IMG/VR virus record: IMGVR_UViG_3300010883_021353
Span: 1-30,893 of that record
Origin: a virus
Length of the DNA: 30,893 nucleotides
Direction: 5' to 3' (one strand)
In this document: positions 1,876 to 30,893 of the stretch, in pieces
Position numbering within the stretch: position 1 is the stretch's first letter
Layout: every line of letters begins with the position of its first letter
Program-made: the position numbers and the translations under genes
The notes under the pieces: generated by a model
Seen by the model: only the letters and a program-made list of their open reading frames with translations
Databases searched by the model: none
What the model was told of the DNA's origin: nothing

Positions 1876-1878
1876 GTG
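1861..1878 (+). promoter_or_regulatory. Ribosome-binding site setting a GTG start
   Basis: CAGGAGA at 1861-1867 lies 8 bases before GTG at 1876. No in-frame ATG is close to this site, so the large fusion protein most likely starts with GTG. Confidence 0.65.
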
Positions 1879-6956: not shown

Positions 6957-6957
6957 C

Positions 6958-7875: not shown

Positions 7876-7876
7876 G

Positions 7877-8800: not shown

Positions 8801-9767
8801 GCGCGCATTAATAACCGGTGTCAACGGTATGGATGGCTCTCACCTGGCAGATTTTTTACTGGAAAAAGGGTATGAAGTCTGGGGTATGGAAAGAAGATCA
8901 TCCAGTAAAAACAGAACAAATACCAAGCATCTAGAAGGTAAGCTAAACTTTGTCAACGGAGATATGACAGATCAAAACTCACTAGTAAGGTGCTTGAAAG
9001 AAGCAGAACCTGATGAAGTATATAATCTGGCAGCTCAATCTTTTGTAGGCGAAAGCTGGAACACACCTGAGTATACCAGCGAAGTCACAGGTCTAGGCGT
9101 CTTAAGAATGCTCGAAGCAATAAGAGAATTCAAAAAGCCTGTTAAATTCTATCAGGCAAGTTCATCAGAAATGTTTGGCAGAATGATTGAAAATCCTGCA
9201 AATGAGCAAACACCGTTTTATCCAAGAAGTCCGTACGGTGTTTCTAAGCTATATGGACACTGGATTACAAAAAACTATAGAGAGTCGTATGACATATACG
9301 CATGCTCAGGCATATTATTTAATCATGAGTCTGAAAGAAGAGGCATCGAATTTGTAACTAGAAAAATTACAGATGGTGTCGCAAAGATTCACTTAGGAAT
9401 CAGTGATAACATAACATTGGGAAATTTAGATGCTAAGCGAGACTGGGGATACGCACCTGATTACGTAGAAGCTATGTGGTTAATGATGCAACAGGAAACT
9501 GCTGATGATTTTGTAATTGCCACCGGAAATACACATACAATTAGAGATTTATTGTCTGCAGCGTTTGCACATGTTGATATTTCTGACTGGGAAAAGTACA
9601 TTAAACAGGATCCAAGGTTCATGAGGCCGGCTGAGGTCGATGTTCTTAGGGGAGACTATACTAAAGCTAAAACTGTTTTAGGGTGGGAGCCAAAAGTTAA
9701 CTTTAATGAGCTGGTGTCCAGAATGGTTTCAAACGATATAAAACTCTTAAAGGGTGAATCCCGATGA
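8793..9767 (+). CDS. gmd: GDP-mannose 4,6-dehydratase
   Basis: This is a 324-residue extended-SDR enzyme that converts GDP-D-mannose to GDP-4-keto-6-deoxy-D-mannose, the precursor of GDP-fucose, rhamnose, perosamine and related sugars. The NADP-binding loop TGVNGMDGSHL is at 8-18, SSSEMFG at 123-129, and the catalytic pair at Y148/K152 (YGVSK). The family-specific stretches LFNHESERRG and GNLDAKRDWGYAPDYVEAMW separate it from GalE-type epimerases. TTGGAGA just upstream gives a good ribosome site. It is slightly shorter than bacterial Gmd (about 345-370 aa). No dedicated GDP-fucose synthase follows, so the next step must be done by the epimerase at 10954 or by the host. Confidence 0.93.
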   Translation: MSKRALITGVNGMDGSHLADFLLEKGYEVWGMERRSSSKNRTNTKHLEGKLNFVNGDMTDQNSLVRCLKEAEPDEVYNLAAQSFVGESWNTPEYTSEVTGLGVLRMLEAIREFKKPVKFYQASSSEMFGRMIENPANEQTPFYPRSPYGVSKLYGHWITKNYRESYDIYACSGILFNHESERRGIEFVTRKITDGVAKIHLGISDNITLGNLDAKRDWGYAPDYVEAMWLMMQQETADDFVIATGNTHTIRDLLSAAFAHVDISDWEKYIKQDPRFMRPAEVDVLRGDYTKAKTVLGWEPKVNFNELVSRMVSNDIKLLKGESR

Positions 9768-10114
9768 AGAGAGTTGATAAGCCATGGGGACATGAGATAA
9801 TCTGGGCAAATTCAGATAGAATCGCTGGTAAAGTATTGAATATCACAAAAGGTCATAGATTGTCACTTCAGTACCATGAAAAAAAAGAAGAAGCAATATA
9901 TGTTATGTCAGGTAATTTGTATCTAACAACAACAAACAAGACCGGAGAATGTGTAGAAACAATGCTTACAGTCGGTGAGTCTTATCACATATTTCCCGGT
10001 GACATACACAGATTTGAAGCTAGAGAAGAAGATGTTGTTCTAGTAGAGGTATCTACACCAGAGCTTAAAGATGTTGTAAGAGTAGAAGACGATTATGAAA
10101 GGGTAAAAAATTGA
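9764..10114 (+). CDS. Cupin, mannose-6-phosphate isomerase type II-like
   Basis: This is a 116-residue single cupin. KPWGHEIIWA (6-15) and GHRLSLQYHEKKEEAIYVMSG (30-50) match the C-terminal isomerase domain of bifunctional mannose-1-phosphate guanylyltransferase/phosphomannose isomerases. Likely metal ligands are Q36, H38, E43 and H82 (FPGDIHRF). It would supply mannose-6-phosphate from fructose-6-phosphate and so feed GDP-mannose to the adjacent dehydratase. The guanylyltransferase half is absent, so that step would rely on the host. It overlaps gmd by ATGA and the next gene by TTGA. A sugar-epimerase cupin is an alternative, but the KPWGxE start argues for the isomerase family. Confidence 0.82.
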   Translation: MKRVDKPWGHEIIWANSDRIAGKVLNITKGHRLSLQYHEKKEEAIYVMSGNLYLTTTNKTGECVETMLTVGESYHIFPGDIHRFEAREEDVVLVEVSTPELKDVVRVEDDYERVKN

Positions 10115-10953
10115 ATGTCGGAATAGTAGGACAAGGATTTGTAGGCACTGCTGTTAAAGAAGGCCTCAAGGACTATCATAATGTTTTAGCATACGACATA
10201 GACCCATCTAAGAGTATGACAGTTTCTTTAGAGCAGGTAGTTAACCATTCTGAAATACTGTTCGTGTGTCTGCCTACTCCTATGAGACCATCGGGTGAAT
10301 GCGACATTAGAATTCTACAAGATGCTATGTTTAGTATTGACAATATAGCGGCTCTTGCATCCGGCAAGAAAAAGATTGTAGTTGTTAAATCGACAATTCC
10401 GCCAGGTACAACAGATAGCTTGAATGATTCATGTCAAAATATAAAAGTAGTTTTTAGCCCTGAATTTTTAACTGAAGCAAATTCATTTGAAGACTTTAAA
10501 AATCAAACTAGAATTATAATCGGAGGCGACGGTGCTAAGAAAGTTAAGCAAATGTTCCGTAAGCCATTCCCTAACATTCCAATAGTAATCACTAGAGCCA
10601 ATACAGCTGAGATGGTCAAGTACTTTATCAACTGTTTTCTTTCTACTAAAGTTACTTTCGCAAATCAAATGTACGATTTATGTGAAGCATCTGGTATTGA
10701 CTACGATAAGGTTTGTGAATATGCATTACTCGATCAGCGCATAGGAGGCAGTCACCTTGCGGTACCCGGACCGGATGGGGACCGAGGATACGGAGGCCAC
10801 TGTTTTCCCAAAGACATGTCAGCCATGATTTATTTCGGAAAGCTGTTTGATGTAAGTTTTGATCTATTCAGTCAAGTTGTGAAATCAAACAGTACATATA
10901 GAAAGAACAAAGACTGGCTCGACATGAAAGGTCGAGCAGTTTCGGAGGATTAA
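10111..10953 (+). CDS. Short UDP-glucose/GDP-mannose dehydrogenase-family protein
   Basis: This is a 280-residue nucleotide-sugar dehydrogenase. The TTG start overlaps the cupin stop (TTGA), with GAAAGGG upstream. The NAD-binding loop GIVGQGFVG lies right at the N terminus. The middle domain keeps the catalytic K170-x3-N174 (KYFIN) and the nucleophile C231 in GYGGHCFPKD. Full-length relatives (about 390-450 aa) continue with a C-terminal UDP-binding domain of well over 100 residues. Here only 49 residues follow the cysteine, and the next gene starts at once with its own ribosome site, so this is not an obvious frameshift. It would oxidise a UDP-hexose or GDP-mannose to the uronic acid if the missing domain is dispensable. 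Confidence 0.85.
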   Translation: MNVGIVGQGFVGTAVKEGLKDYHNVLAYDIDPSKSMTVSLEQVVNHSEILFVCLPTPMRPSGECDIRILQDAMFSIDNIAALASGKKKIVVVKSTIPPGTTDSLNDSCQNIKVVFSPEFLTEANSFEDFKNQTRIIIGGDGAKKVKQMFRKPFPNIPIVITRANTAEMVKYFINCFLSTKVTFANQMYDLCEASGIDYDKVCEYALLDQRIGGSHLAVPGPDGDRGYGGHCFPKDMSAMIYFGKLFDVSFDLFSQVVKSNSTYRKNKDWLDMKGRAVSED

Positions 10954-11817
10954 ATGAGAGTATTAGTTACAGGCGGTCTAGGTTTTGTAGGCTCACACTT
11001 AGTTGACTATTTAGCTGAAAGCAATGAGTATGAGGAAATTGTCGTAATTGACAACTTATCATCAGAATCTTCTAATAGAAATTACATGAGAGATGATGTA
11101 ACATACTGGATAGACGATATTGCAAACTTAAATACGTACAGATACACCGGTGAAAAGTTTGATTTAATTTATCACTTAGCTGCACTAGCAAGAATACAGC
11201 CTTCTTTTATAGATCCACTTAAGTACTTAAGCACTGATATGATGGGTACTGCACATGTATGTGAAATGGCTAGAAGTTCTGGGGCAAAAATAGTCTATGC
11301 AGGATCTTCATCTGCATTTGGAGGTCCCATGCTAAATCCATACGCATTTGCAAAATATACTGGAGAACAATGTTGTGAACTGTATTCAAGGGTATACGAC
11401 GTAAGTACAGTATCTGCTAGGTTCTTTAATGTTTTTGGTGACCGGCAGCCCACTAGTGGATCGTATGCTACAGTCGTCGGTATATTTGAAGGACAAAAGT
11501 CTGAAGGTTGTGCCCTAACGATTACAGGCAATGGAGAGCAGCGAAGAGACTTTACCCATGTGAGTGACATTGTTAGTGGATTAGTTGCACTTTCAAAAAG
11601 TACCTATAAGGGCACTGTATACCAGCTCGGCACAGGCAAAAACTATTCCATTAATGAGCTAGCAACAATGTTTGAATCTGAAATTACGTATATACCATCC
11701 AGACCCGGCGAAGCATGGGTAACATTAGCTGACATAGAAAAGACAAAACAAGCTACTGGTTGGAACCCTACTGAATCTTTGGAAGATTACATCAAAGAAT
11801 TTCTTACAAAAATGTAA
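10954..11817 (+). CDS. NAD-dependent nucleotide-sugar epimerase/dehydratase (extended SDR)
   Basis: This is a 287-residue protein. It has TGGLGFVGSHL (6-16), the NAD loop; AGSSSAFG (116-123); and Y130/K134 (YAFAK), the catalytic pair. RFFNVFGDRQ and GNGEQRRDFTHVSDIV are typical of GalE-like UDP-sugar 4-epimerases, UDP-glucuronate epimerases and UDP-xylose synthases. GGAGG at 10944-10948 gives a clear start. Directly after the dehydrogenase it could act on the uronic acid; alternatively it could use the Gmd product. Length and motifs do not settle the substrate. It ends the first run of sugar genes, followed by a 43-base gap. Confidence 0.85.
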   Translation: MRVLVTGGLGFVGSHLVDYLAESNEYEEIVVIDNLSSESSNRNYMRDDVTYWIDDIANLNTYRYTGEKFDLIYHLAALARIQPSFIDPLKYLSTDMMGTAHVCEMARSSGAKIVYAGSSSAFGGPMLNPYAFAKYTGEQCCELYSRVYDVSTVSARFFNVFGDRQPTSGSYATVVGIFEGQKSEGCALTITGNGEQRRDFTHVSDIVSGLVALSKSTYKGTVYQLGTGKNYSINELATMFESEITYIPSRPGEAWVTLADIEKTKQATGWNPTESLEDYIKEFLTKM

Positions 11818-15176: not shown

Positions 15177-15490
15177 TGGATTACACTTATTACATAATTA
15201 TCTGTTTGTGCATTGGTTTGAGTGTATCAGTCTACTACAGCATAAGATTTGGGATGATTATATTGAGAATGCAAGACTCCATCGAAGAATCATTAGATAA
15301 ACTAGATGGCTGTTACCAGTCAATAGAAAAAACACTCAAAATACCACTATTTTTCGATAATTCCGAAGTAAAGAAAGTCTTAAACGACATTGAGCATGCT
15401 AGAAATGCTGTTTTGTATGTGGCCGGCCAAATGGCTTCTATTGAAGAAGTTGAAGAAGTCGAAGAAGATATATCAGAGGAGATAATCTAG
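15176..15490 (+). CDS. Small membrane-anchored coiled-coil protein
   Basis: This is a 104-residue protein. Residues about 4-32 (YTYYIIICLCIGLSVSVYYS and the following IRFGMIIL) form one membrane-spanning helix with no signal cleavage site. It is followed by a polar, probably helical region (about 35-95) and an acidic tail EEVEEVEEDISEEI encoded by gaagaagt-type repeats. The location suggests an inner-membrane protein facing the cytoplasm, but orientation is not certain. It lies between a glycosyltransferase and the late sigma factor, overlapping both by one base. I do not recognise the family; a membrane tether for the sugar enzymes or a lysis-related role would be guesses. Confidence 0.7.
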   Translation: MDYTYYIIICLCIGLSVSVYYSIRFGMIILRMQDSIEESLDKLDGCYQSIEKTLKIPLFFDNSEVKKVLNDIEHARNAVLYVAGQMASIEEVEEVEEDISEEII

Positions 15491-16218
15491 TGGCCGGCCG
15501 AAAAAAAATAAGAAGATCAAAAGGTAAAAGTAGAAACTTGTACTTCACTGCTGAGACGCAGGAATTCTTAATTGCATACCAGAACACAGAACTGATTGAA
15601 GAGCAGCAAAAATTCTACCTAGAAAAAATAGCACCTGCATTTGAAAAACTAGTTGAAAATCTTATTTTTGTATACGGTTTTAAGACTGCGTATGACTCTT
15701 TTGATGATCTAAAAACAGACTGTGTTTCGTTTCTTTACGAGTCTATACACAAGTGGAAACCGGAGCGCGGCACAAAAGCATTTTCATATTTTAATGTTGT
15801 TGCAAAAAACTGGCTGATCATAAAGTCTAGGCAGCAAACCAAAAGAATGCGACGCCACGTTTCTGTAGATGCACCTGAATTAATGTCCGCATCACAAAGG
15901 TCAGCATATGAGTCATATGATGTAATACCTGCACCTGATGAGATACTAATAACTGCTAACTTAAGAAATCAAATACAGGACTTACTAAAAGTAATTGAAG
16001 GAATCGTTACTAGCGAATCCGAAAAGACTTGCATAAACGCCATTCAAGTCGTTTTTAAGAATATTGACGAGCTTGATTTTCTAAATAAGCGTGCAATTTT
16101 AGTGTACGTAAGAGAGATATCTGGACTTTCACCCAAGCAATTATCAGTTGCAATGTCTTCCATACGCAAGCACTATAGGAAATTAACAGGCTATGACAAC
16201 AAGTTTAACCTATTCTAG
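15490..16218 (+). CDS. 55: gp55-like late-transcription sigma factor
   Basis: This is a 242-residue protein (T4 gp55 is 185). The core DDLKTDCVSFLYESIHKWKPERGTKAFSYFNVVAKNWLI (about 77-115) matches the sigma region 2 core-binding helix pattern seen in gp55 proteins of marine T4-like phages. A basic N terminus and KSRQQTKRMRRHVSVD follow the pattern of DNA-contacting segments. The last residues, GYDNKFNLF, are hydrophobic and may be the sliding-clamp contact known from T4 gp55. It should direct host RNA polymerase to late promoters. The GTG start at 15490 shares its G with the preceding TAG; GAGGAG at 15476-15481 supports it. Confidence 0.8.
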   Translation: MAGRKKIRRSKGKSRNLYFTAETQEFLIAYQNTELIEEQQKFYLEKIAPAFEKLVENLIFVYGFKTAYDSFDDLKTDCVSFLYESIHKWKPERGTKAFSYFNVVAKNWLIIKSRQQTKRMRRHVSVDAPELMSASQRSAYESYDVIPAPDEILITANLRNQIQDLLKVIEGIVTSESEKTCINAIQVVFKNIDELDFLNKRAILVYVREISGLSPKQLSVAMSSIRKHYRKLTGYDNKFNLF

Positions 16219-16227
16219 GGGTGATAC

Positions 16228-16593
16228 GTGTCAGAAGACATCGAAAAAGGCTTAGACAGCCTACAAAAAATAAACAAGAAGATTGAAGTATTTAGCGACA
16301 TTCTAGATAACTTAACATCTACAGGAGACAAGAAAAAGATTCTGTGGAAAGAAATCTACGAAAATGCGCTTACCGATCGTGAAAATGCATCTATGCTTTT
16401 TAATGATGCATGGTCAAATATGACAGAGGGAACTGTAGGACACTCTACAGTCGGACCCATCATAACAAAGTATCTAGAGCGAATGTGCAAATCAAATGAT
16501 CAAATACTAAGACTAGCAGAATTGATTGCTAAAGCAGAAGAGGAATCCGCTAGAATTGATCCAGACGATATCTTTAGCGAGATAAATGGTTGA
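16228..16593 (+). CDS. Small helical protein of unknown function
   Basis: This is a 121-residue protein with a GTG start at 16228. It is largely helical and charged, beginning EKGLDSLQKINKKIEVFSDIL. A conserved-looking centre DRENASMLFNDAWSNMTEG precedes GPIITKYLERMCKSNDQILRLAELIAKAEE, and it ends DPDDIFSEING. I think similar small proteins occur beside late genes in marine T4-like phages, but I cannot name the family. Position right after the sigma factor and an acidic-hydrophobic C terminus make a gp33-like late coactivator one possibility; a small terminase-like helical protein is another. Both are inference. Confidence 0.65.
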   Translation: MSEDIEKGLDSLQKINKKIEVFSDILDNLTSTGDKKKILWKEIYENALTDRENASMLFNDAWSNMTEGTVGHSTVGPIITKYLERMCKSNDQILRLAELIAKAEEESARIDPDDIFSEING

Positions 16594-16596: not shown

Positions 16597-18291
16597 ATGG
16601 CTAAGAAAAAAGGTGTAGACGTACAGAGGAAAATGGCGACCAAGCGGGTCGACAACTCTGAAGAAATACAGGACATAGCACACGCCCCACCCTCTAAAGT
16701 CTTTCAAAGAGCGATTGTTGTAGAGGTTCTTAATGATGTGTCGCTTAGATCTGAAGAAGAAATAGAAGCACTGTCACTATCAACTGTGGCTCCTGAACAG
16801 CTAAAATACGCACCCAGAAATTCTCTAATTGTCAGGCTATACGCTTCAGGTGCAGACAAGTCAGGAACCAAAGACTTACTATGCTATCCATTTTTTCCAC
16901 CATTTATTGCGCTTCCAGTTAAACAGGGAGAGCAAGTTTGGGTTTTTGCTGAGTCACCAGATGTTCCACAAAAAGTTGCATACTGGATGACTAGAATTGC
17001 TGAGGCTGATTTTGTTGATGATGTAAACTATACACATGGAGACAGAAAGTTTTCAATTTCTGTAGATAAAACACAAGATTTATCAGATCTCGAAGAAGAA
17101 CCTGAAGATGAAGAACCGCCTGCAGAAGACCAAGAGCCTCCTCCAGAAGTTACCGGTAATAAAGAGGTTGATACACTACCCGGTCCTCCATCGTTTAATA
17201 ATGGTGCAACTGAGCAAGGCGATGACGCTGCAACAACGCTAACACAACCTCAAAAAGAAGGCGCGCCTGAAGGAGAAGCTGAAGAGCTGGATCCAATATA
17301 CGAAACTATATTCACAGGCTCACTAGGTGGTCAAGCATTTGCAATTGAGCCAGTGCCTAGATTTACCAAAAGACCGGGTGATTTAGTACTGCAAGGTTCT
17401 CACAATTCATTAATATGTCTAGGGACAGACAGAGGGTGGAATGTTAACGATCGACCTGAAGAGTCTGAAAATAGTAATGCACACACACCTGAAGGTGAAG
17501 GATTAAGAAGCTTTTCAGGGACTGTTGATATTGTAGCAGGAAGAGGAATATTTGCGGGCGAATTAAACCCAGATAAAGACAAACTAGTAGGCACTGAGCC
17601 TCGTATTATCGAAAACACCCGCGGTTCACTAGAAATAGATAAAAATCCTGCTGCCTACTTCGGCGACGAAATAAGAAAAGAAATAAAATTTAATCGCCAA
17701 GATGTTGCTGTAGAAGGCGATCCCGACTTTGTTCATGACGCATCTAGAATTTATGTCTCCATGAATACAGATGGTGATGCCAATTTAGGTTTAGACATTC
17801 ACACACCAGAGTTTGTAAAAGCAGCGGGCGCCGAACCTATTAGTGAAGCACCCTATGTTATTTTAAAATCAAACGAAATAAGAATTGTCTCTAGGCACAC
17901 CAAAGAAGAAAATGATCGACCCAAACAAGAAGGCTCTATTAGAATTGTAAGGGAAGATGAAGATCCGACCAAAGCATGCACCATTACAATGTTACCTGGT
18001 GGAAAAGTTCTAATAGATGCTGAGCAAATTGTAATAGGTGACGGTAGAAATAATCAAACATTTGTAGGCGATGGCGCAACAGAACAAATGGTATTAGGGA
18101 ATACCTTGACAGACTCTGTCCTGCTACCATTCCTACAAGCAATAAGAGATAATGCACCTACTTTCTCTCAAGGCGCTAGTCCTAATGTACTGGCACCTGC
18201 TGTTCTAGCTGCTACTATTCAAGTACTGGCAGCTCTTGGTGACGGCGGATCTGAAAATTCAATCTTGAGCAAAGTAGGAAAGATAAAGTAA
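16597..18291 (+). CDS. gp5-like baseplate hub/spike protein (no lysozyme domain seen)
   Basis: This is a 564-residue protein. Residues about 35-145 resemble an OB-fold with CYPFFPPFIALPVKQGEQVWVFAE, as in gp5/gpV spike proteins. Residues about 155-190 are a Pro/Glu-rich linker. A second beta region has FTKRPGDLVLQGSHNSLICLGTDRGW. The C-terminal part, GGKVLIDAEQIVIGDGRNNQTFVGDGATEQMVLGNTL, resembles the repetitive beta structure near the spike, and ends in a hydrophobic Ala/Leu-rich stretch (about 505-555). T4 gp5 carries a lysozyme domain; none is recognisable here, as in cyanophage versions. Position before gp25 and gp6 supports a central baseplate role. The start has only a weak ribosome site. 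Confidence 0.65.
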   Translation: MAKKKGVDVQRKMATKRVDNSEEIQDIAHAPPSKVFQRAIVVEVLNDVSLRSEEEIEALSLSTVAPEQLKYAPRNSLIVRLYASGADKSGTKDLLCYPFFPPFIALPVKQGEQVWVFAESPDVPQKVAYWMTRIAEADFVDDVNYTHGDRKFSISVDKTQDLSDLEEEPEDEEPPAEDQEPPPEVTGNKEVDTLPGPPSFNNGATEQGDDAATTLTQPQKEGAPEGEAEELDPIYETIFTGSLGGQAFAIEPVPRFTKRPGDLVLQGSHNSLICLGTDRGWNVNDRPEESENSNAHTPEGEGLRSFSGTVDIVAGRGIFAGELNPDKDKLVGTEPRIIENTRGSLEIDKNPAAYFGDEIRKEIKFNRQDVAVEGDPDFVHDASRIYVSMNTDGDANLGLDIHTPEFVKAAGAEPISEAPYVILKSNEIRIVSRHTKEENDRPKQEGSIRIVREDEDPTKACTITMLPGGKVLIDAEQIVIGDGRNNQTFVGDGATEQMVLGNTLTDSVLLPFLQAIRDNAPTFSQGASPNVLAPAVLAATIQVLAALGDGGSENSILSKVGKIK

Positions 18292-18608
18292 TGGCTTTGA
18301 ATGCAGGAAAATTAGAGGCCGCGTTAAAATCTGCTCTTAAATCTGCGCTGGATGCTGAGCAAGGTCCAGCACCTGCGGAGGGCGACGGTCATAGAACAAA
18401 ATTCTGTAATGCTGTTGCCAAGGCTGTTTCAAAAGAAGTAGTTGATCACATAGTTTCTAACATGGAAGTCAAAGGAATTATGATTCAAGTAGATCCTGCC
18501 TCGTATGTTATCTCTGTCTTCGGAGGAATGGGAATACCTGCAATTAATTTTCCAAACCCACCCTTACTTCACAAGCAAATGAACGACGGCATAGGGTTGA
18601 TTAAATAA
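18291..18608 (+). CDS. Small baseplate-region protein, paralog A
   Basis: This is a 105-residue protein. The N-terminal half is helical: MALNAGKLEAALKSALKSAL, then the block APAEGDGHRTKFCNAVAKAVSKEVVDHI (about 26-53). The C-terminal half is beta/Gly-rich: SYVISVFGGMGIPAINFPNPP and the end GIGLIK. The next gene is a clear paralog with the same blocks in the same order. The ATG shares its A with the spike gene's TAA stop. Function is unknown; the position right after the spike suggests a spike-tip or hub-associated structural component. Confidence 0.75.
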   Translation: MALNAGKLEAALKSALKSALDAEQGPAPAEGDGHRTKFCNAVAKAVSKEVVDHIVSNMEVKGIMIQVDPASYVISVFGGMGIPAINFPNPPLLHKQMNDGIGLIK

Positions 18609-18973
18609 TGGCACTCAACGCTAGTCAGCTACACACTTCTATGAAAGGAACACTAAAGTCAGAGTTAGATTCAGCACTAGGACAAGCGCCTGCTGAGGGT
18701 GATGGTCACAGGGTAAAGTTTTGTAATGCAATAGCTAAAGCACTTTCAGAAGAAATTGTCAAGCACATTGAAGAAGACTTGGAAATTGTAGGTGTCAAGG
18801 TAGAGTTTCCTGGCGGCACGTATCTTATGACCAGTTTCGGCGGTTTTGGTGTTACTCCTATAGCAGGTGTAATAATCCCAGGGACGCCCATTATTCCATT
18901 CATGCAAACAGCTCCTTTATTCTTCAGCCAAGATCCGCTACAAAAAGTAAATGGTCGAGGATTGATCAAGTAG
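18608..18973 (+). CDS. Small baseplate-region protein, paralog B
   Basis: This is a 121-residue protein sharing with its upstream neighbour MALNAxxL, the block APAEGDGHRxKFCNAxAKAxSxExVxHI, a Y-x4-FGG-x-G motif and the ending GLIK. The C-terminal part is longer, with a Pro/Ile/Gly-rich segment (GVIIPGTPIIPFMQTAPLFF, about 87-106) absent from paralog A. The tandem pair is best explained by gene duplication followed by divergence. It overlaps the previous stop by one base, so the spike gene and both paralogs are coupled. A 59-base gap follows before gp25. Function is unknown. Confidence 0.75.
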   Translation: MALNASQLHTSMKGTLKSELDSALGQAPAEGDGHRVKFCNAIAKALSEEIVKHIEEDLEIVGVKVEFPGGTYLMTSFGGFGVTPIAGVIIPGTPIIPFMQTAPLFFSQDPLQKVNGRGLIK

Positions 18974-21384: not shown

Positions 21385-22986
21385 ATGTACTTAATAATCA
21401 CAGCTAGCAGCGACGCATATATTCAAAACAAAATCATTGACAGCTCGTATAGAACAACAGACGCGAATACAGGTCTGGCCGGCACATTAGACTTATTCAA
21501 GCTTTACGGCGAGACATCCTTGCCAGATGATGAAACAACACCGGCGACATATGCACTAGACGTAAATGGCGACGGTACCGCAGAGACAAGCGTTGAGCTG
21601 TCTAGAATATTAGTAAAGTTTGACTATGATAAACTGACACGTCAGTCAGCAAAAAACATGGATGTGACCAACAGCAAGTTTAAGGCGTTCTTAACATTAA
21701 AAGCAGTCTCAGCAGGTCAATTTACCCCAAAGGACTTTACTGTAAATGTAATGCCGCTAGCACAGTCATTTGATGAAGGTATCGGGAAAAATGTAATATC
21801 GTTTCAAGACTTAGACGCATGTAACTTTGTTACTGCATCAATGTCAGGAGCTACAGTAAACCCATGGAATACTGCTGGAGCCGGCGCTCTAGGAGCAGTC
21901 GGCGCCGCAAGTAAGGATGCATATAACACAGCAAATTTTGGTTTAGGCAGTACTAGTATCATTGCCAGCCAAACATTTCAGGACGGTGGCGAAGATCTCA
22001 GAGTTGATGTTACAAATTTAGTTTCTGCTTCTTTGACGAGCCAGCTAACTAATCACGGATTTCGGGTTTCTTTTTCTGCAGCACAAGAAACTGACACCAA
22101 AACAAGATTTGTCAAGCGATTCGCATCCAGACATGCTAAGAATCCATATCTTCGGCCCGGTCTTCATATTGTGTGGGACGACACAGTTACAGATAATAGC
22201 TCCAATGCAGTTTTCGATCATTCCAATAAGCTTTATTTCCAGAATTACTTGAGAGGCGAAGAGACTAATCTAAAAATTGGATCCACTTCCTATAGCGGAG
22301 CCAGCTGTGCAAGATTAGTAATATCATCAGGATCATTTGCAGTAACCTCTAGTGTTTCATCAGTTGCAAATAACACTGCAGGGACTAGTAGACCAGGACT
22401 ATACTCAGCTACATTTACTGTCAATTCTAACGATTCGACTGTAATAAGGTCAGGTGATACATATTCTGACAAGGTCTCAGACTTTGCAATAAAAAGTGGT
22501 TCACTAGATCTTACTACTGAGTGGCAGCTTTCAGATGGATCACTAACATTTTATACAGGCAGTATAACACTTAGCCAGACAGATCGATACCAGGGAAACT
22601 TCACATCTAGAGAGCCAAGTATTAATGTTACAAATATGGCCAGTGAGTATAGAAGAACAGACACTACAAGAATGAGGTTGTTTGGTAGAGATATTGCTGC
22701 AGAGTACAAAGAGAAATACGGATCTGTTCCTCAAAAGAGACAATCAGTCATATATGATGAAGTCTATTATCGTGTTGTAGATGCACTTTCAGGTGATGCT
22801 GCTGTTCCGGAAAATAGAACACAGAATGGAACCCGAGTATCTACAGACTCTGCAGGTATGTTTTTTGACCTAGATATGGATAACTTGTGTGCAGGTAGAA
22901 ATTACTACTTTGTGTATACAGTTATAGAAAGAGGTACAGAAACAATACTTCAGGACAAGGATATAACGTTTAGAGTGATTAGCTAA
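21385..22986 (+). CDS. Baseplate-associated virion structural protein
   Basis: This is a 533-residue protein. MYLIITASSDAYIQNKII...TTDANTGLAGTLDLFKLYGE and ELSRILVKFDYDKL form the N-terminal signature I associate with structural proteins that follow gp6 in marine T4-like phages; the fold recalls DNRLRE-type beta-sandwiches. The middle has RFVKRFASRHAKNPYLRPGLHIVWDD. The C-terminal part is a beta-rich domain (SIPQKR-like loop SVPQKRQSVIYDEVYYRVVD, ending NYYFVYTVIERGTETILQDKDI), fibronectin-like in look. AGGAGC before the ATG gives a good ribosome site, and the stop shares one base with the next ATG. A peripheral baseplate or fibre-attachment role is inferred from position. Confidence 0.65.
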   Translation: MYLIITASSDAYIQNKIIDSSYRTTDANTGLAGTLDLFKLYGETSLPDDETTPATYALDVNGDGTAETSVELSRILVKFDYDKLTRQSAKNMDVTNSKFKAFLTLKAVSAGQFTPKDFTVNVMPLAQSFDEGIGKNVISFQDLDACNFVTASMSGATVNPWNTAGAGALGAVGAASKDAYNTANFGLGSTSIIASQTFQDGGEDLRVDVTNLVSASLTSQLTNHGFRVSFSAAQETDTKTRFVKRFASRHAKNPYLRPGLHIVWDDTVTDNSSNAVFDHSNKLYFQNYLRGEETNLKIGSTSYSGASCARLVISSGSFAVTSSVSSVANNTAGTSRPGLYSATFTVNSNDSTVIRSGDTYSDKVSDFAIKSGSLDLTTEWQLSDGSLTFYTGSITLSQTDRYQGNFTSREPSINVTNMASEYRRTDTTRMRLFGRDIAAEYKEKYGSVPQKRQSVIYDEVYYRVVDALSGDAAVPENRTQNGTRVSTDSAGMFFDLDMDNLCAGRNYYFVYTVIERGTETILQDKDITFRVIS

Positions 22987-25900
22987 TGGCAAGAAACAAG
23001 ACAATATCTAGTGGCTTTGGCCTATTTTCGGCTAATACCGTAAAATCACTAACTGAAAATAGAGCATCTATAGTTAATGTTACAGCATCAGAGCATACAG
23101 GATCTGTTGCACTACACACGTCTGCATCATTTAGATATGACGACCCGGGCAATCCTCTTAAGTCGACACAGCAGCTGAAGCTAGACTGGTCAAAATTTGA
23201 AAATCATACGTTTTTTAATTCTGCAGAGGCAAAAGTTAATATGACGTTTGAGACAATCATCAACGGATATCCGTTTGATGGCACATCAGATGAAATATAT
23301 AAGTTTCAAGACAAGCTAACGGGATTTGAAAAACATGTCTTAGACAGTTTGCCACACTATACAGGCTTCATGAATTTTAACAATTCACAGTTTATCGAAG
23401 TTGAAGATCGTGCCGGCATACTCTACCCTGATCTATCTAGAGAAACAACAGCCAAGGCTGTTTTAGATCCAGGTGTAGGCTCGTTTACATATGAGATGAA
23501 TTTATATGTACCCACAGCTAGAGGCGGAAACGTTGCTGCAGATAAACAAGTAATTGCACAAAAAATCAAAAACAATAACGGCATTACTTTATATACAAAG
23601 CCATCACCTGCTAAAGAAATAGTAGTAAGCTACACTGGCCAACCTTCTGATGGAAACAGTATATCCCTAGTTTCAGCTGATGGCACTTCCAAGACATATG
23701 AGTTTGATAGTGGGGGAGGTGTATCGGGCGACAATGTTCCAGTAACAATTTCAGACGACGACGCTGATGCAACTTATGCTGCACTAAAAATAGCTATCAA
23801 AAGCGCTTCAGGCCACAACGGAAAAATTACTACTACACATACAGACGACAATAATAATGCAGGAAGTATTACCTTTAAAAGGACTACAAAAGATACAAAC
23901 GATGTGTCTATTTTAGGGGCTGCTACTATAGGTAATGCAACAATTCCTGCAACAGGTCTAACAACACACTCTGACATTATATTACTAGCAACATCAGGCT
24001 CTGTTAGTGCATCTTCAAAGGTAAAAGTAAAAAGAGGCAAGTGGAATCACATTTCTGCATGTCTCAATCGAAACCCGGGAACAAATAGAATTGAAATGTT
24101 TGTGGGTGGAAAAAATATTTCAAGATCATCTCAATTTGAAATCTTTGACTTTGCATTTGCTGATGCTGGATTAACAATTGGAAAAGGCACAAACATTACG
24201 GCAGCCGGAGATATAACTGCCGTAACATTTAATACATGTCTTTCTGCCAGTATGGATGACTTTAGAATTATTCACAGCGCTCGTTCTGAATCTGCTCTTG
24301 ATCACGAAAAGAATAGGAAAATTGAGCCTAGAAAAAATCTACGCCTTAACTTCACATTCAATGAGCCGACAGGATCCTACAATAATCAAGCAGTAATCTT
24401 AGACCACTCAGGAAATTCTCTTCACTCAAAACTAAGCAGAACAGGCAGCGATTCATACGATCCAAACTGCAGAGTAGATCCGGGTTACGGTAATCCTATG
24501 GTTCATGAAGATGCAAGTAGATATCCTGTATTGTTTCCGTCACACCCAGATTTAGTAACATACAATACTCGTCTAATGGTGTCTGCATCCAATTATGATA
24601 CCAACAATCCCAACATGATTACCAAGCTAGTTCCTGACCACTATCTTCGAGAAGCTCACTTCGCTGAAGGCTTTAGTGATAAAAAAGAACTGGGTGATGT
24701 AGAGGACTTGTACGGATATGATACAGATTTCCCAGGCGGCGGAAAAATGGGATCGCCTCAGATTATCGCATCACTTCTTTTTATATGGGCCAAACAATTT
24801 GACGAAATGAAGCTGTTCTTAGACCAGTTTGGTAGGGTATTACATGCTGATTATAAAGAAGAAGACACTGTTGCAGATACATTTTTACCATTCATGGCAC
24901 AATATTATGGATTCGAACTTCCAGATATGTTTCCCAATGCTTCACTAAGCCAGTTCGCCGGAAAAGAAGGACAAGGCACCAGTCAGGCCATGTCTAATCT
25001 TTCTTTGCAGCAGATACAGAACTCTATATGGCGAAGAGTCTTAGCAGACATTAGAGAAATTATGAGGTCTAAAGGTACGATTCACGGCATCAAGACATTC
25101 TTAAGAAATCTTGGCATTGACCCGGACAGAAGCTTCAGGTTTAGAGAATATGGTGGGTCTAGAACAGGAAGAATAGGCACAGCTAGACAAGAAATAAAAG
25201 AGATTGGTCGCATACTTTCATTTACGGGAAGCTTGGCTTCGGGCGCGAAGAACACAGAGACAACAACACTTCCTATCCTGGTAAAGTCTAGGCGACCCGG
25301 TGCCAAAACTGTGTACACAAGACCTACCAAAGCTTATACAGACTCCCCACTAATAGTTTCACCATTTCTATCAGGTACAAGAGTGGAAACAGGAACACCT
25401 CACACCAAGATAAGTTCAGATAAATTTGTCTTAGGCAGCAGCTCTTCATATGCGCTAGGTGGTGAAAACATATTAAGGTCGGGTAACCATACTAAATACG
25501 GTATTTCTCCTGAAGCTTCTGATGGATTATTTACTAGTGGTTCATGGTCATGTGAAGCAATGTACATGTACGGTGGGACACATTCTATAAAATCTGTTCA
25601 ACCTGTAACTCAAAGCTTGATGAGGATGTATGTAACAGGAACTGTAATGAGCACAGCATCTAAAGAGGCTGCTACAGGAACAGTTAAGTTCACAGGACTA
25701 CCAACAGACGCAGCCACTATTACGCTTAAAGATTCAGAATCTTCGCCTACGTCTAAAACATTTGAGTTTGACACCGGCGGCGGAATTACAGGCGGTAACG
25801 TCAGTGTCACAATTGGGGTCAAGGACACAGCTCAGATTGTCGCAAAGAATTTTGTTGCTGCTATAAAAGCAACAACAGCATTGAAAATTAAAGCTCAGCT

Positions 25901-28193
25901 TCTTGGTGATGGAAGAACTGTACGTCTATCTATGGTTACACCTGGAACACCTACAGTTACTAAAATAGCAACTACTGGGACAACAAATACAGTTATTACA
26001 CACTTCACTGGTGGCTTTGATGATGAAATTTTAGGATCATCGTTCACCGGCGGAGGCGTAGCCAATATCACTGGCAGAACTATGCTTACTTATTTAGTGG
26101 CACTTTCTGGTTCACAAGACTTACAAACTACAGGATCGCTAGTTCTTTTCGCCAGGCCAATTCCTGGTCGACAGCCTTTAGTCATGGCACTGACAGGAAC
26201 AGATATTTTCGACGGAGACAGGTGGAACATATGCTACGGTCGCATTAGAAATGACTTGTCAGGTACACACATTAGCAGTAGTTACTTCCTTCAAGCATCA
26301 AAAGCGATGGGCGATCGGCTAATAATTTCAAATAGAGTTGAAAAACTATTTGACGACCATGAGACTAGCCTGACTACAGAAAAAACAGAAATAAAAATAG
26401 CATCACCAAATGCAGTTGACACAGTAACACTAGTGTCACATGATGGTACATCTAAGATTTATAAATTTATGACTGATGGATCCAATGCAACCGGCGTCGT
26501 CGATTCCGGTGCTGTTACGGTTCAAATTAACGGTCTTACTAGTGATAATGACAAGACAGAACAGCTAAAATTAGCAATTGAAAACGCAAATGGCCATGGC
26601 ACTGATGCAGCTGCTGCTGGTTCAATTGTCGTACCGGCACCTAGTTCAACAGTTGCAGCACTAAAGACTGCATTAAACACAGATACGTTTACAATATCAG
26701 ATGCTGCCGGAAACTCACAAATATTTACTTTTAGAGAAAACACTGACAATGCCACAGTAGGAATTGTAGGGCTTAAGAGTGATACATCCATTGAAGATAT
26801 CGCCCTGTCCATAAGAATTGCAATTAACAATATACCCAGTCTTAAGATCACCGCGGCTGCGCCTACAGGTGCATCTTCAAATGCTGCACATACAATTAGC
26901 ATTACACAAAATGTGTTAGGCACAGCTGGAAATGGTTCTATAGCCAGTAGCGGTACTAGCTCTCCTGCAATGACATATAATGCATTTACAGGCGGCACTA
27001 GTAAAAAGTTGACGATAGTTAGAAATGACAATATTATAAAAGTCACACAGGCATCAAATACGCCACCTGTTCTAACAATCAGCGCCGATGCTAAGTCTGC
27101 AAATAGGATATCAATACAGGCAAAGATGTCTGCTGTCAACATGTCAGCTTTCAATAACATAACAAACATCAATAGATCTGGTTCATTTATCGTAGTCGGT
27201 GATCTAAATGACACAATCACAGGTACTTCATCGAAAACATACGGCTTAGATGGAAAAGACCTTGCACTTAATACCTCTCTAAGTACTGCTCAGGCATTAA
27301 TGGCACAGACAACAAAATTCGGAGGCAATCTAGCCCAGGTAAGATTTTGGTCGAAGGGCTTAACAGAAAAAGAACATCAAGAGCACTCCTTAAACTATAA
27401 CTCAGTAGGTGTAGAAAACCCTGCAAAGAATTTTGGTTTCGCTGAAAATGTCGAAGGATCTTTTGAAAGGCTTCGATTAGATGTCTCAATGGATCAAGAA
27501 GTAACAGGTACTGAAGCCAACAAGACTATAATTCTCAAGGACTTTACGCAGAACATGTTTGACATGGAGGGTTACGGCTTTGAAGCTAGCAAGCAGACAA
27601 TATATCCGAAGACTTTCAAGTACTCTATACTGAGTCCTAACTTTGATCAAAGCTCACAGTCTAATAAGGTTAGGGTAAGAAGCTACCTGGATCCCGCAGT
27701 AGCTCGTAGAGAACTAGTTGACGTCGCCCCTGTTTACCATATACCTAAGTCCGAAAAGATCCACGACGACCTAAGATTCGGTATAGAAATATCAATCGCG
27801 CAGGCACTTAACGAGGACATTGTCAATATACTTGCTACAATGGATGAAATAGAAAATTCTATTGGTGCACCTGAAAGTCAATTTGACGTAGGATACGTGG
27901 GTCTAGAAAACATCAGAGACATTTATTTCAACCGATTAACAGACAAAATTAACATATCTAATTTCTTTCAGTTTTTTAGATGGTTTGACAATACTATCGG
28001 TGATACTATTGAAAATCTAATACCTAGAAAGACAAAGTTCACCGGCGTCAACTACATTATTGAACCCCACCTTCTAGAAAGACCGAAATTTACATACAAC
28101 ACTTCAGACATGTATTTAGGCGAAAACAATCGTCATGGTCTAAAGGGCGAAATATTGCTTAGGCAACTAGTCGCCATCGTGAGGAGATTCTAA
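22986..28193 (+). CDS. Giant modular baseplate protein with interrupted LamG-like domains
   Basis: This is a 1735-residue protein. Residues about 120-440 look like a LamG (concanavalin-fold) domain with GKWNHISACLN at W353, but a module (about 211-330) interrupts it. Residues about 590-725 include FLPFMAQYYGFELPDMFP and IWRRVLADIREIMRSKGTIHGIKTFLRNLGI (W682 on), a conserved segment of phage tail/baseplate proteins, followed by EYGGSR. A second LamG-like region (W1080 in DRWNICYGR) is preceded by module 2 (896-1011) and followed by modules 3 and 4 (about 1136-1380). The C terminus, FFQFFRWFDNTIGDTIENLIPRKTKFTGVNYIIEPHLLER, is again typical of far-T4 structural proteins. The place after gp6 suggests a gp7-like role, but no sequence match is claimed. 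Confidence 0.7.
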   Translation: MARNKTISSGFGLFSANTVKSLTENRASIVNVTASEHTGSVALHTSASFRYDDPGNPLKSTQQLKLDWSKFENHTFFNSAEAKVNMTFETIINGYPFDGTSDEIYKFQDKLTGFEKHVLDSLPHYTGFMNFNNSQFIEVEDRAGILYPDLSRETTAKAVLDPGVGSFTYEMNLYVPTARGGNVAADKQVIAQKIKNNNGITLYTKPSPAKEIVVSYTGQPSDGNSISLVSADGTSKTYEFDSGGGVSGDNVPVTISDDDADATYAALKIAIKSASGHNGKITTTHTDDNNNAGSITFKRTTKDTNDVSILGAATIGNATIPATGLTTHSDIILLATSGSVSASSKVKVKRGKWNHISACLNRNPGTNRIEMFVGGKNISRSSQFEIFDFAFADAGLTIGKGTNITAAGDITAVTFNTCLSASMDDFRIIHSARSESALDHEKNRKIEPRKNLRLNFTFNEPTGSYNNQAVILDHSGNSLHSKLSRTGSDSYDPNCRVDPGYGNPMVHEDASRYPVLFPSHPDLVTYNTRLMVSASNYDTNNPNMITKLVPDHYLREAHFAEGFSDKKELGDVEDLYGYDTDFPGGGKMGSPQIIASLLFIWAKQFDEMKLFLDQFGRVLHADYKEEDTVADTFLPFMAQYYGFELPDMFPNASLSQFAGKEGQGTSQAMSNLSLQQIQNSIWRRVLADIREIMRSKGTIHGIKTFLRNLGIDPDRSFRFREYGGSRTGRIGTARQEIKEIGRILSFTGSLASGAKNTETTTLPILVKSRRPGAKTVYTRPTKAYTDSPLIVSPFLSGTRVETGTPHTKISSDKFVLGSSSSYALGGENILRSGNHTKYGISPEASDGLFTSGSWSCEAMYMYGGTHSIKSVQPVTQSLMRMYVTGTVMSTASKEAATGTVKFTGLPTDAATITLKDSESSPTSKTFEFDTGGGITGGNVSVTIGVKDTAQIVAKNFVAAIKATTALKIKAQLLGDGRTVRLSMVTPGTPTVTKIATTGTTNTVITHFTGGFDDEILGSSFTGGGVANITGRTMLTYLVALSGSQDLQTTGSLVLFARPIPGRQPLVMALTGTDIFDGDRWNICYGRIRNDLSGTHISSSYFLQASKAMGDRLIISNRVEKLFDDHETSLTTEKTEIKIASPNAVDTVTLVSHDGTSKIYKFMTDGSNATGVVDSGAVTVQINGLTSDNDKTEQLKLAIENANGHGTDAAAAGSIVVPAPSSTVAALKTALNTDTFTISDAAGNSQIFTFRENTDNATVGIVGLKSDTSIEDIALSIRIAINNIPSLKITAAAPTGASSNAAHTISITQNVLGTAGNGSIASSGTSSPAMTYNAFTGGTSKKLTIVRNDNIIKVTQASNTPPVLTISADAKSANRISIQAKMSAVNMSAFNNITNINRSGSFIVVGDLNDTITGTSSKTYGLDGKDLALNTSLSTAQALMAQTTKFGGNLAQVRFWSKGLTEKEHQEHSLNYNSVGVENPAKNFGFAENVEGSFERLRLDVSMDQEVTGTEANKTIILKDFTQNMFDMEGYGFEASKQTIYPKTFKYSILSPNFDQSSQSNKVRVRSYLDPAVARRELVDVAPVYHIPKSEKIHDDLRFGIEISIAQALNEDIVNILATMDEIENSIGAPESQFDVGYVGLENIRDIYFNRLTDKINISNFFQFFRWFDNTIGDTIENLIPRKTKFTGVNYIIEPHLLERPKFTYNTSDMYLGENNRHGLKGEILLRQLVAIVRRF
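23616..23976 (+). repeat. Inserted module copy 1 (protein-level repeat)
   Basis: Residues about 211-330 of the 1735-aa protein. Hallmarks are ISLVSADGTSKTYEFDSGGG, GDNVPVTI, ALKIAIKSASGHNGKITT and GSITFKRTTKDTNDVSI. It splits the first LamG-like domain: the strand before it (GITLYTKPSP) and after it (IILLATSGSVSAS) read as neighbouring LamG strands. Confidence 0.65.
25671..26016 (+). repeat. Inserted module copy 2 (protein-level repeat)
   Basis: Residues about 896-1011. EFDTGGGITGGNVSVTI (from E927) aligns with EFDSGGGVSGDNVPVTI of copy 1 (from E239) at about 12 of 17 positions. It ends in VITHFTGGFDD. It lies upstream of the second LamG-like W motif. Confidence 0.65.
26391..26631 (+). repeat. 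Inserted module copy 3, first part
   Basis: Residues about 1136-1216: VDTVTLVSHDGTSKIYKF (K1160), AVTVQING, LKLAIENANGHG. Copy 1 continues after 'GH' with a KITTTHTDD strand; here that strand (KLTIVRNDN) appears only after copy 4, at about 27000-27130. Confidence 0.6.
26643..27000 (+). repeat. Inserted module copy 4, apparently nested in copy 3
   Basis: Residues about 1220-1338: DTFTISDAAGNSQIFTFREN (I1246), IEDIALSIRIAINN, LKITAAAP, HTISITQNVLGTAGNGSI, ending NAFTGGTSK. It shares the strand order and the final FTGG with copy 2. Its two ends fall in the middle of copy 3. Confidence 0.6.
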
Positions 28194-30893
28194 TGGCAGA
28201 TCAGCATGTTCATATACACCCCCAAAGACTAACAGGCTCATCAGCACATCGCTGGGATGAACTAGTCAGAGATAGAGATGCAGGTGCTCTTAAAGCTGGA
28301 ACCTTTTATCTATCAAATTTAAAAGGTTCCACAGCACACATAGTCGCACCGGAAGAATTCTCAGGATCAAACTACGATCAAACATTTCTTCAGGGTGTTG
28401 ATGTAAAAACATATGAGCAGGCAACAGGATACACACCTGCAAAAATGAGACCTAATTCTGACTTTAATATTATAAGGTCTGATAGACTAGGTTCGTATGT
28501 AATAGGTTTGCATGTCACATCTTCTGCCACACCCAATCAGCATCGTGTACTCAAGCTAGATGAACCTGAATACTTTGATGATAACACTAGTCCAGCTTCA
28601 CTAGGCTCTTTAAGTGTGTCCGGCTCAAAGGCACAACTAGACACTAGCATGCATAAGCGCAAAGCTAGAATTCACAATAAGTTTTATCGTGAACAAAGAG
28701 ACTTGGGACAGGCAAATCTTTTTCAAGATGGTACTGCTTATAAAGACACCTTGACAGTAAGTCCGCTAGAAATCATACAAGCAGGATCAGGAAGCCACCC
28801 AGAAAATGTAAGCTTTCCCGAGTACATGGTTCATGCAACTGATCGCTCTACTTCTGATGGAACTATTGAGGTATTTCCAATACGATCCATTGCAGACAGA
28901 TCTAATATTGAACATCCACACACAGCACAAGGAATAAAGTCAGACTTAAACATTGTTGATGCTTATAGAAAGTCTGATGTAATGAGTCACCAGCGTCAAA
29001 AATTAGGCTCAAGAAAGCTAGTAATCGGGCGCACAGTTAGAACATACACATCTATTCTTTGTAATATCGCCGCCGGCGGAAATGGCGACACACTATCTTT
29101 TAAGGTGGGAGGCATCACATGCACAATAACAGTAGCTGGGTCAGCTGTTGCTGCTAACAAATCAAACGCCGTAACTGCAGTTGCTTCCATAGTAGAAGGA
29201 TCCTCAGACGCTGAGTTTGCCACAAACCTACATGCAGCACTAGTAGCAATTAAGGCGTTGGGTGTAAGGATATCTGCCACCATATCAACTAGCACTGTTT
29301 ATTTAAGAGAGGCACTAGATAGAAGCCGAACAAGAGGTGTAGTTGTTAGTGCAACAGACGCAGATGGTGATGACTTCAGCAATATTACTGCTTTAAAAAC
29401 ATGCGGTGGCTTTACCATAGAGTACTACAAATATTCAGACTATGTATATGAAGGTTCAAAGTCAAGGGCACTCGCCGGATATGACTACTACCTTGACGGT
29501 GTGGAATCTTTCGGCATCGAGGTCCTGGACAATGCTGATCATGTAAAGCTATTGACAGCATCAATGCCCAACCCAGACTCTGAAGACCCTAATGACGTAA
29601 TTAAGCTGGACGGTTATCTTCCATGGCTCAAGATGCACAGATCCGGAACGTTCGGTAGTCAGCACATCGGTCCTATAAATACACAGGGTTTCATTGCTCC
29701 GGAGCATGCAAAGATCACTGCGTTTGAAGATAACTCTGACAGAGATATATCACGAGTTAGAATTAGCGATGCAAATACATTTACATCGTCCCCAAACTTC
29801 TACCTGACAGCTGCAAGAACTACAATTACAGGTAGAAAATATACAGGTCAAGGTAATCTACTTTTTCAAGCTTCGTGGCTAAAGTCAAAGTCGGCATTTG
29901 TAGATTCTAGTCATACTTCATTCGCATCAGACATAAAGTCTAGGCTGTCCGGAAGCGCTGCGTCTGCAGTAGGATCAGTTTCATTTAAGAAAACATCACC
30001 ATATTTTCCCGAGTCAGGTCACTACGCCTTTAAGAGCAGTCAAGGTGTCGATAAAACATATCCAGCAGTTTGTGCAATAAGCGGCAGTCACCACTTCAGC
30101 GGCCGGGCCCATGACGCCTCAGCAGCAGGAGGCTTTAAAGATGACAGCCCATGGACTGTGTCATACTGGATGTCAGGATCAGATGAAAGAGCAGATCATT
30201 TTAGATCTGTAAGAGACATTATCCACTTTAGAAATGATCCGTTTGATGTTGCAGATCACTATCCTAACGTGGAAAACTTTACTGTTCGTCACTACATGAG
30301 AGGAAACTACGGTTATCTTTATGTCTCGTTATTTGACAACGACTTTTATCCTAGTAACCATCATCGCGTCGACTTTATCTTTGCGGGTGTAGCCAGTGGA
30401 TCAAATATGTCGTGGTTGAGGAATTCCACACAAGAAAACTCCCTCTATAATACTATTAAAGGAGGCAACAGCTGGAATCATTTAACAGTTGCATATGACG
30501 GAGGAATGCATTCAACAGTCACAGGAGGAAGTAATATATACCAACCTAGTGGCGGAACCAAACATGCAAATCTTTTACAAGCACTTGAAGTAGAAACACG
30601 ACACGAAAACGACTCTATAACTAAGGGTGTTACAATCAACGCAATAGCCATGGCAAATAATACTAGTTATGTTATTATGTCAATGGGCAATACAACATTT
30701 AATGCTAGCGTCGGCTCAAGCTATTCAACATCTCCAGTAGCTGTAGGAACTACATTTACATCACATGCATCTAACACATTTGGTTCTGTTGGAACAGCCA
30801 CTGTAAGGCTTAGAAGCTTAGTGTATTTTGATACCCCGGCCACTAGTGCTACTACAAAAACAACACTCTACAATTATGGTGACAGTAAATACC
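28193..30893 (+). CDS. Giant virion protein with LamG-like domain (3' end beyond window)
   Basis: The frame is open from ATG 28193, whose A is the last base of the preceding TAA, to the window end: 900 codons without a stop. The N terminus MADQHVHIHPQRLTGSSAHRWDEL is followed by a region with GTFYLSNLKGSTAHIVAPEEF and DFNIIRSDRLGSYVIG. Residues about 285-400 hold another inserted-module-like segment. Residues about 600-770 show LamG features: GHYAFKSSQGVDKTYPAV, DDSPWTVSYWMSGSDERADHF and GGNSWNHLTVAYDGG (W761). After it comes a Ser/Thr/Asn-rich stretch that may be one more insertion. It is probably a peripheral baseplate or side-fibre protein, partner of the preceding gene. Confidence 0.75.
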   Translation, partial: MADQHVHIHPQRLTGSSAHRWDELVRDRDAGALKAGTFYLSNLKGSTAHIVAPEEFSGSNYDQTFLQGVDVKTYEQATGYTPAKMRPNSDFNIIRSDRLGSYVIGLHVTSSATPNQHRVLKLDEPEYFDDNTSPASLGSLSVSGSKAQLDTSMHKRKARIHNKFYREQRDLGQANLFQDGTAYKDTLTVSPLEIIQAGSGSHPENVSFPEYMVHATDRSTSDGTIEVFPIRSIADRSNIEHPHTAQGIKSDLNIVDAYRKSDVMSHQRQKLGSRKLVIGRTVRTYTSILCNIAAGGNGDTLSFKVGGITCTITVAGSAVAANKSNAVTAVASIVEGSSDAEFATNLHAALVAIKALGVRISATISTSTVYLREALDRSRTRGVVVSATDADGDDFSNITALKTCGGFTIEYYKYSDYVYEGSKSRALAGYDYYLDGVESFGIEVLDNADHVKLLTASMPNPDSEDPNDVIKLDGYLPWLKMHRSGTFGSQHIGPINTQGFIAPEHAKITAFEDNSDRDISRVRISDANTFTSSPNFYLTAARTTITGRKYTGQGNLLFQASWLKSKSAFVDSSHTSFASDIKSRLSGSAASAVGSVSFKKTSPYFPESGHYAFKSSQGVDKTYPAVCAISGSHHFSGRAHDASAAGGFKDDSPWTVSYWMSGSDERADHFRSVRDIIHFRNDPFDVADHYPNVENFTVRHYMRGNYGYLYVSLFDNDFYPSNHHRVDFIFAGVASGSNMSWLRNSTQENSLYNTIKGGNSWNHLTVAYDGGMHSTVTGGSNIYQPSGGTKHANLLQALEVETRHENDSITKGVTINAIAMANNTSYVIMSMGNTTFNASVGSSYSTSPVAVGTTFTSHASNTFGSVGTATVRLRSLVYFDTPATSATTKTTLYNYGDSKY
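29050..29400 (+). repeat. Module-like segment in the following giant gene
   Basis: Residues about 287-402 of the open gene: GDTLSFKVGGITCTITV, AEFATNLHAALVAIKALGVRISATIS, STVYLREALDRSRTRGVVVSA. The order (two beta strands, helix with AAL/AI, strand, V-x-L strand) matches the modules of the 1735-aa protein more in pattern than in identity. Confidence 0.45.

Follow-up and report, generated by a model that had tools for sequence, protein, structure and literature searches.

An unnamed domain inserted in loops of phage baseplate and sheath proteins and of its own copies, probably a mobile tail decoration remotely related to the sheath extension domain

The baseplate locus and its four repeat copies

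The window analyzed here, the whole 30,893-bp stretch of an IMG/VR virus record, encodes a 1735-residue protein, P0001, that carries four copies of a repeated module (Table 1). Upstream of it stand a gp25-like ORF (Pfam E 5e-5) and a gp6/baseplate-J-like ORF (PHROG E 2e-12), followed by a 533-residue ORF, a gene order consistent with that around a gp7/gpI baseplate wedge protein. Because P0001 itself matches Tail_P2_I (E 0.26) and its orthologue in L012 matches Gp7_helical (E 0.014), both weakly and below the Pfam cut-off, we take P0001 to be likely a gp7/gpI-like wedge component. Further upstream of the baseplate genes, positions 1876-11817 hold a run of glycosyltransferase-like, methyltransferase-like and nucleotide-sugar ORFs, including by eye a 902-residue glycosyltransferase and GDP-mannose dehydratase-like, cupin, sugar dehydrogenase-like and epimerase-like ORFs, and this run could serve glycosylation of the virion or of the host surface. 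Beside the tail genes, two ORFs at 15490-16593 resemble by eye a late sigma factor (gp55-like) and a partner. At 18291-18973, adjacent ORFs of 105 and 121 residues, starting MALNAGKLEAALKSALKSALDAEQGPAPAEGDGHRTKFCNA and MALNASQLHTSMKGTLKSELDSALGQAPAEGDGHRVKFCNA, have the look of tandem paralogues.

Table 1. Features of the baseplate locus in window coordinates; bits and i-E values are those of the independent profile on P0001 unless stated otherwise.
Feature	Position	Strand	Basis or remark
533-residue ORF, without a copy in the window	21385..22986	+	
P0001, 1735-residue baseplate wedge-like protein (likely gp7/gpI-like core), carrier of four copies	22986..28193	+	ORF, gene order, weak Pfam
First LamG-like domain (residues ~140-440), split by copy 1	23403..24305	+	Laminin_G_3
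Copy 1 (residues ~211-330), flanked by strands GITLYT and TTHSDIILLATSGS	23616..23975	+	residues 219-291, 46 bits, i-E 8e-14; missing from nearly all relatives, L005 included
Second beta-rich, LamG-like domain (residues ~845-1505), split by copy 2 and by copies 3+4	25518..27500	+	
Copy 2 (residues ~896-1012), copy used for the AlphaFold2 model	25671..26021	+	residues 906-1010, 37 bits, i-E 6e-11
N-terminal two thirds of copy 3 (residues ~1136-1216), covering profile positions 2-66	26391..26633	+	residues 1141-1210, 28 bits, i-E 4e-8
Complete copy 4 (residues ~1224-1338), apparently lying within copy 3, past the helix of copy 3	26655..26999	+	residues 1231-1337, 33 bits, i-E 1e-9
Copy 3, C-terminal third (residues ~1339-1383), tentative	27000..27134	+	5.9 bits
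Possible fifth copy (tentative), strongly diverged, in P0002, the following ORF (residues ~285-420)	29045..29452	+	8.5 bits across profile positions 36-79

The repeat observation is confirmed: P0001 contains four diverged copies of a domain of about 105 residues. A first-pass annotation, made from the sequence alone, had claimed at least four copies of a module of 115-120 residues, and its boundaries match those of the profile to within a few residues. In single-copy phmmer searches copy 1 finds copy 2 at E 4e-12 and copy 3 at E 1e-6, with copy 4 alone being marginal (E 0.01-0.05). As circularity was to be avoided, the independent profile was trained on 75 copies that all lie outside P0001 and its copy-bearing orthologues; it recovers all four copies, against a top score of 6 bits among 200 shuffled P0001 sequences. 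The 12 of 17 residues said to be shared by copies 1 and 2 around EFD[ST]GGG proved to be an exact count (TSKTYEFDSGGGVSGDN vs. TSKTFEFDTGGGITGGN), and the motif of the module reads TITI-x-D-x-DGT-[ST]-K-x-[YF]-x-F ... A-x-x-L-x-x-x-IN ... [IV]-T ... V-x-LTQ-x-x-x-G-x-x-GNT-x-I ... F-x-GG.

Two finer claims held in part. Copy 3 had been described as split, running over residues 1136-1216 and resuming at about 1339-1380; its N-terminal part is recovered by the independent profile, whereas the score of its C-terminal part is marginal, being equaled by 4 of 1000 shuffles (p about 0.004), and the strands predicted there by in-context AlphaFold2 modeling (about 1342-1347 and 1350-1355) are of low confidence. 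The counterpart of this third in L004 is without profile support. The copies had also been placed before GKW or DRW motifs, which describes copies 1 and 2 but not copies 3 and 4, located after DRW. The candidate copy in P0002 does not appear when whole ORFs are searched with the independent profile.

Insertion into host domains and into the module itself

The first host domain is a LamG-like fold interrupted by copy 1. Its Laminin_G_3 score rises from 20.3 bits to 26.9 bits, just below the Pfam cut-off of 27.6 bits, when the copy is removed in silico, and copy-free relatives score 26-46 bits, the orthologues in L012 (32), L014 (42.6) and L022 (45.5) exceeding the cut-off; the domain is therefore continuous across the gap. 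The second host domain has core strands of high pLDDT on both sides of its inserts in the in-context AlphaFold2 model, and in 60 relatives the flanks run straight over both gaps, that of copy 2 and that of copies 3+4. It gives no Laminin_G_3 match against Pfam, with the inserts kept or removed, and its hhalign comparison with the first domain is not significant (E 0.02, probability 2%). The reading of both host domains as LamG-like and continuous across the copies is thus borne out by Pfam for the first, whereas for the second the flanks align and the domain is not provably LamG.

For the comparison of orthologues, 80 relatives were collected and reduced to 71 distinct full-length sequences. 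A detectable copy is absent from 67 of these, most orthologues being about 1100-1250 residues long, with gaps at residues ~208-323, ~898-1020 and ~1133-1394 over which the flanks align. The four copy-bearing exceptions are L004, which has every window copy at the same sites plus one extra within copy 2, and L006, L007 and L038, each with a single copy at a different site, near residue 805-835. In L005 (78% identity over the best segment) copy 1 is cleanly missing and the site reads GLTLYTKASVNPDDSSSTTHSDII. Relatives lacking single copies, which the first-pass annotation had anticipated, therefore exist, and to judge from these alignments the window copies are true insertions. At the single empty site inspected at the DNA level, that of L005, we found no insertion signature in the form of a target duplication or mobile element; the idea that L005 retains a scar of copy 1 was dropped after this check, as evidence for it was wanting. 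A MAFFT alignment of single copies with host-domain rows was also set aside, the copies being scattered along the host domain. Separately, the P0001 orthologues of L009, L010 and L013 carry another insertion of about 390 residues (residues ~670-1060) immediately before the second host domain. It contains no detectable copy of the module, and the site may be a general insertion hot spot.

The module is also found within copies of itself. When the inner copy is removed by script, the outer halves of a nested copy in L012 join into a single match of 94.9 bits (57 and 43 bits apart), and joined outer halves reach 85.3 bits in L098, 70.1 in L091, 62.8 in L111 and 53.1 in L004. Nesting recurs in at least five phages and at two loop positions, of which the first follows strand 2 (profile ~30-43) and the second the helix (~62-67). 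The two outer halves in G002 resemble their inner counterparts to about the same degree, at 67% and 63% for the amino acids and 68% and 66% for the DNA, as a single insertion event predicts. Based on the rejoined halves and these comparisons, self-nesting is clear in L012, L098 and G002. In the window, copy 4 occupies the second loop (after the helix) of copy 3, the same one as in L012; nesting here is likely rather than proven, given the marginal score of the C-terminal third of copy 3 and its unsupported counterpart in L004.

Spread among proteins, fold and remote kinship

In related phages, an iterated profile retrieves 132 matches, whole copies or fragments, from 62 ORFs. Copies are present in the tail sheaths of three phages, L114, G002 and G011; the L114 protein has a sheath core (PHROG E 1e-53) and three copies, and the 162-residue ORF that follows it is read as the tail tube. 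Homologues of the 533-residue ORF have one copy near the N-terminus in L116, L118, L120 and L121 and none in the window, L004, L005 and others, and small proteins of about 165 residues have one at or near the C-terminus. Copies per record range from 0 to 21 matches with fragments counted, values that are not frequencies because the records were mostly chosen for holding a copy. In L087, L090, L099, L100, L104, L106 and L107, proteins of 165-213 residues consist of an N-terminal part of about 65 residues and one copy, and these N-terminal parts apparently belong to at least two unrelated types. A 1471-residue protein of L094 (4138-8550) holds about 14 successive copies or half-copies, N-terminal fragments coming early and C-terminal ones later, and is possibly a multiply nested array.

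By pairwise score, the nearest relative of window copy 1 is a copy in a sheath, the second of the three in L114 (93 bits), with the L004 copy at the same site scoring 70; in the tree the three form one clade (support 99/86), inside which the window and L004 copies pair with weaker support (92/66), and copies from one protein are split among separate clades. The sheath copy of G002 and the nested pair of copies in a 1227-residue protein of that phage are mutual best matches at 84-107 bits, all others scoring at most 30. The presence of copies in sheaths and other hosts, the proximity of copy 1 to a sheath copy and the matches in G002 together show, at the level of sequence comparison, that the module is mobile between proteins, also within one genome. 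The proposal of a mobile decoration domain spreading within baseplate proteins is accordingly right as to mobility but too narrow in its range of hosts, which extends to sheaths and other proteins.

The AlphaFold2 model of copy 2, built from a 68-copy alignment, has the order strand-strand-strand-helix-strand-strand-strand (pLDDT 83.4, pTM 0.79), with a 14-residue helix between strands 3 and 4 modeled at high confidence, suggesting an alpha/beta fold and not an Ig sandwich. In the in-context model of residues 832-1510 the inserts mostly remain below pLDDT 50, since they are common to L004 only. A single fold for all copies, as anticipated in the first-pass annotation, is thus upheld at the profile level and by the well-modeled copy 2, but not by the inserts seen in context. 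A Foldseek search of the copy 2 model returned nothing significant in the PDB and two significant matches in BFVD, one to an uncharacterized protein from an uncultured Caudovirales phage and the other to an unnamed entry, with weak matches to sheaths (E 0.4-1.7); the in-context model of 832-1510 found nothing.

No family in Pfam, NCBIfam or PHROGs covers the module, and only PHROG sheath matches recur; among 68 copies scanned with Pfam the sole Ig-like-type match is a chance-level PKD_5 (E 0.039). Searches with tblastn of P0001 and three single copies against GenBank phages gave no isolate match, and a single-sequence scan of genome contigs gave no relative. The statement that no named family exists for it thus holds for the three databases, and the remote relative that did emerge is the extension domain of Mu- and Milano-type sheaths. 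The best PDB match of the 68-copy profile (A4) is the Milano tail sheath 8fop (E 0.0011, residues 92-184), and residues 91-203 of Milano gp20 constitute the external sheath extension domain, SED, as defined in the cryo-EM study of Milano (PMC10811340). In hhalign the module profile aligns with the SED at 88.2% (E 2.9e-6) over 46 columns that make up the helix-hairpin core; with a smaller copy set (A2) the value is only 13.7%. Of ten Mu-type sheaths, nine are also matched by the profile, at 9-26 bits, and wherever the location of the match is given it is this region. In light of these matches, the module appears to be remotely related to the SED.

Interpretation and comparison with known systems

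We consider it probable that the module is an unnamed, mobile, loop-inserting decoration domain of the outer tail that also inserts into itself and is remote kin of the SED, and the interpretation offered in the first-pass annotation is overall supported. According to this model, an independently folding alpha/beta domain of about 105 residues would enter surface loops of contractile-tail proteins, in the baseplate, in the sheath and in further large proteins, and also loops of existing copies, without disturbing the host fold; the copying would probably proceed by ordinary recombination. Given the remote kinship with the outward-facing SED, the copies most likely lie on the exterior of tail and baseplate, where they would coat the surface and may add area for weak binding to the host envelope or contribute to virion stability. 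Adhesion and virion stability have both been proposed for extra sheath domains (PMC9230969), and both putative roles fit the module; that the copies vary the outer surface is plausible.

The alternative that fares best concerns function: the module could be a receptor-binding or adhesion domain selected for surface variation, as proposed for Ig-like domains, with host-range switching driving its spread. Its location in baseplate and sheath, the turnover among close relatives (L005 vs. the window and L004) and the lower conservation of copy 1, at 50% between the window and L004 as against 69% for the best segment of the protein, would all suit such a role. We regard it as somewhat doubtful, since no binding site, conserved surface residues, carbohydrate-binding signature or Pfam adhesion family was identified, and a stability role or a neutral hitch-hiking domain would look identical. 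It is unlikely that the apparent nesting stems from two independent partial tandem duplications, one of the N-terminal and one of the C-terminal half, rather than from a complete copy entering a loop. The order N-N-C-C is expected from both routes, but the N- and C-terminal halves of G002 are about equally diverged, for which one event is simpler, and the pattern recurs across phages and at both loop positions.

An ancient tandem duplication within one baseplate lineage, in which the copies arose in P0001 and were lost in relatives with no movement across proteins, would explain why copies 1, 2 and 3+4 occupy identical sites in the window and in L004. We find it very improbable: all sites are empty in nearly all relatives, the module also resides in sheaths, in homologues of the 533-residue ORF and in other ORFs, no clustering by protein is seen in the tree and the clades cut across proteins, with copy 1 scoring nearest to a sheath copy of another phage. 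Least credible of all is convergence of ordinary hypervariable LamG loops or strands, alike through composition and secondary structure, since the low identity among copies and the lack of confident insert structure in the in-context model are set against independent-profile E-values of 1e-8 to 1e-13 with shuffles at 6 bits, the same domain near the C-terminus of ~165-residue proteins and in sheaths, and a LamG score that goes up when copy 1 is removed.

If the module is indeed a mobile, loop-inserting decoration, one may tentatively go further and picture a transposon-like domain spreading through the structural proteins of a virus, into loops of unrelated tail proteins and of its own copies, to build Russian-doll stacks with no dedicated mobile element. 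Such spread would be possible because the ends of the module lie close together and it folds independently, a reading that we propose and hold as possible, short of probable. Domain sharing among phage proteins is already known (PMC10684548, PMC9230969); what is new is the module family, its link to the SED and its recurrent insertion into its own copies. A survey of titles and abstracts on nested, self-inserting or Ig-like inserted tail domains did not reveal a description of the module or of its recurrent self-insertion. The known promiscuous virion domains are mostly Ig-like. The module, by contrast, has an alpha/beta fold and neither a name nor an entry in Pfam or NCBIfam, and in uncultured phages it is shared by the sheath, the baseplate and further large proteins; several of these phages show self-nesting. 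It offers a natural test of how well a fold tolerates repeated loop insertion, and its profile would aid annotation of many "hypothetical" giant tail proteins.

Several known systems invite comparison. The strand-helix-strand pattern of the module resembles that of the IN-type motif of flagellin and the FliD hook protein; kinship is not significant, with one of 68 copies matching a FliD model weakly (NCBIfam E 0.0026), a Foldseek FliD match at E 2.4 and no Pfam match at E 0.1. The BACON tandem repeats of crAss-like phages (PMC6949934) are likewise a repeated domain of phage proteins and a possible hotspot of evolution; they are arranged head-to-tail and have a different fold, whereas the copies described here are dispersed and nested, and the Pfam scan of 68 copies returned no BACON match. 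The Ig-like domains of phage virions are promiscuous and commonly exchanged horizontally (PMC9230969); like the module they are accessory domains that recur in unrelated virion proteins, and surface decoration and weak carbohydrate binding have been suggested for them, but the module differs from them in having a central helix and no beta-sandwich, in being inserted into loops and in nesting within itself.

The closest comparison is with the SED, known in Mu gp39 as domain III, an outward-extending and divergent domain of the sheath (PMC11915804). Module and SED share a helix and beta-hairpin core with the pattern A..A..I..A(I/V)NA ... (V/I)TLT ... G..GN, their first strands remaining unaligned, and in Milano gp20 the SED faces outward and is itself inserted in the sheath body domain (PMC10811340). 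The SED occurs once, at a fixed place in the sheath, whereas the module occurs in multiple copies, in many other proteins and nested within itself; its window copies reside in a baseplate wedge-like protein, and those of L114, G002 and G011 are found, as is the SED, in sheaths. The module thereby connects the outer domain of the contractile sheath with decorations elsewhere on the tail.
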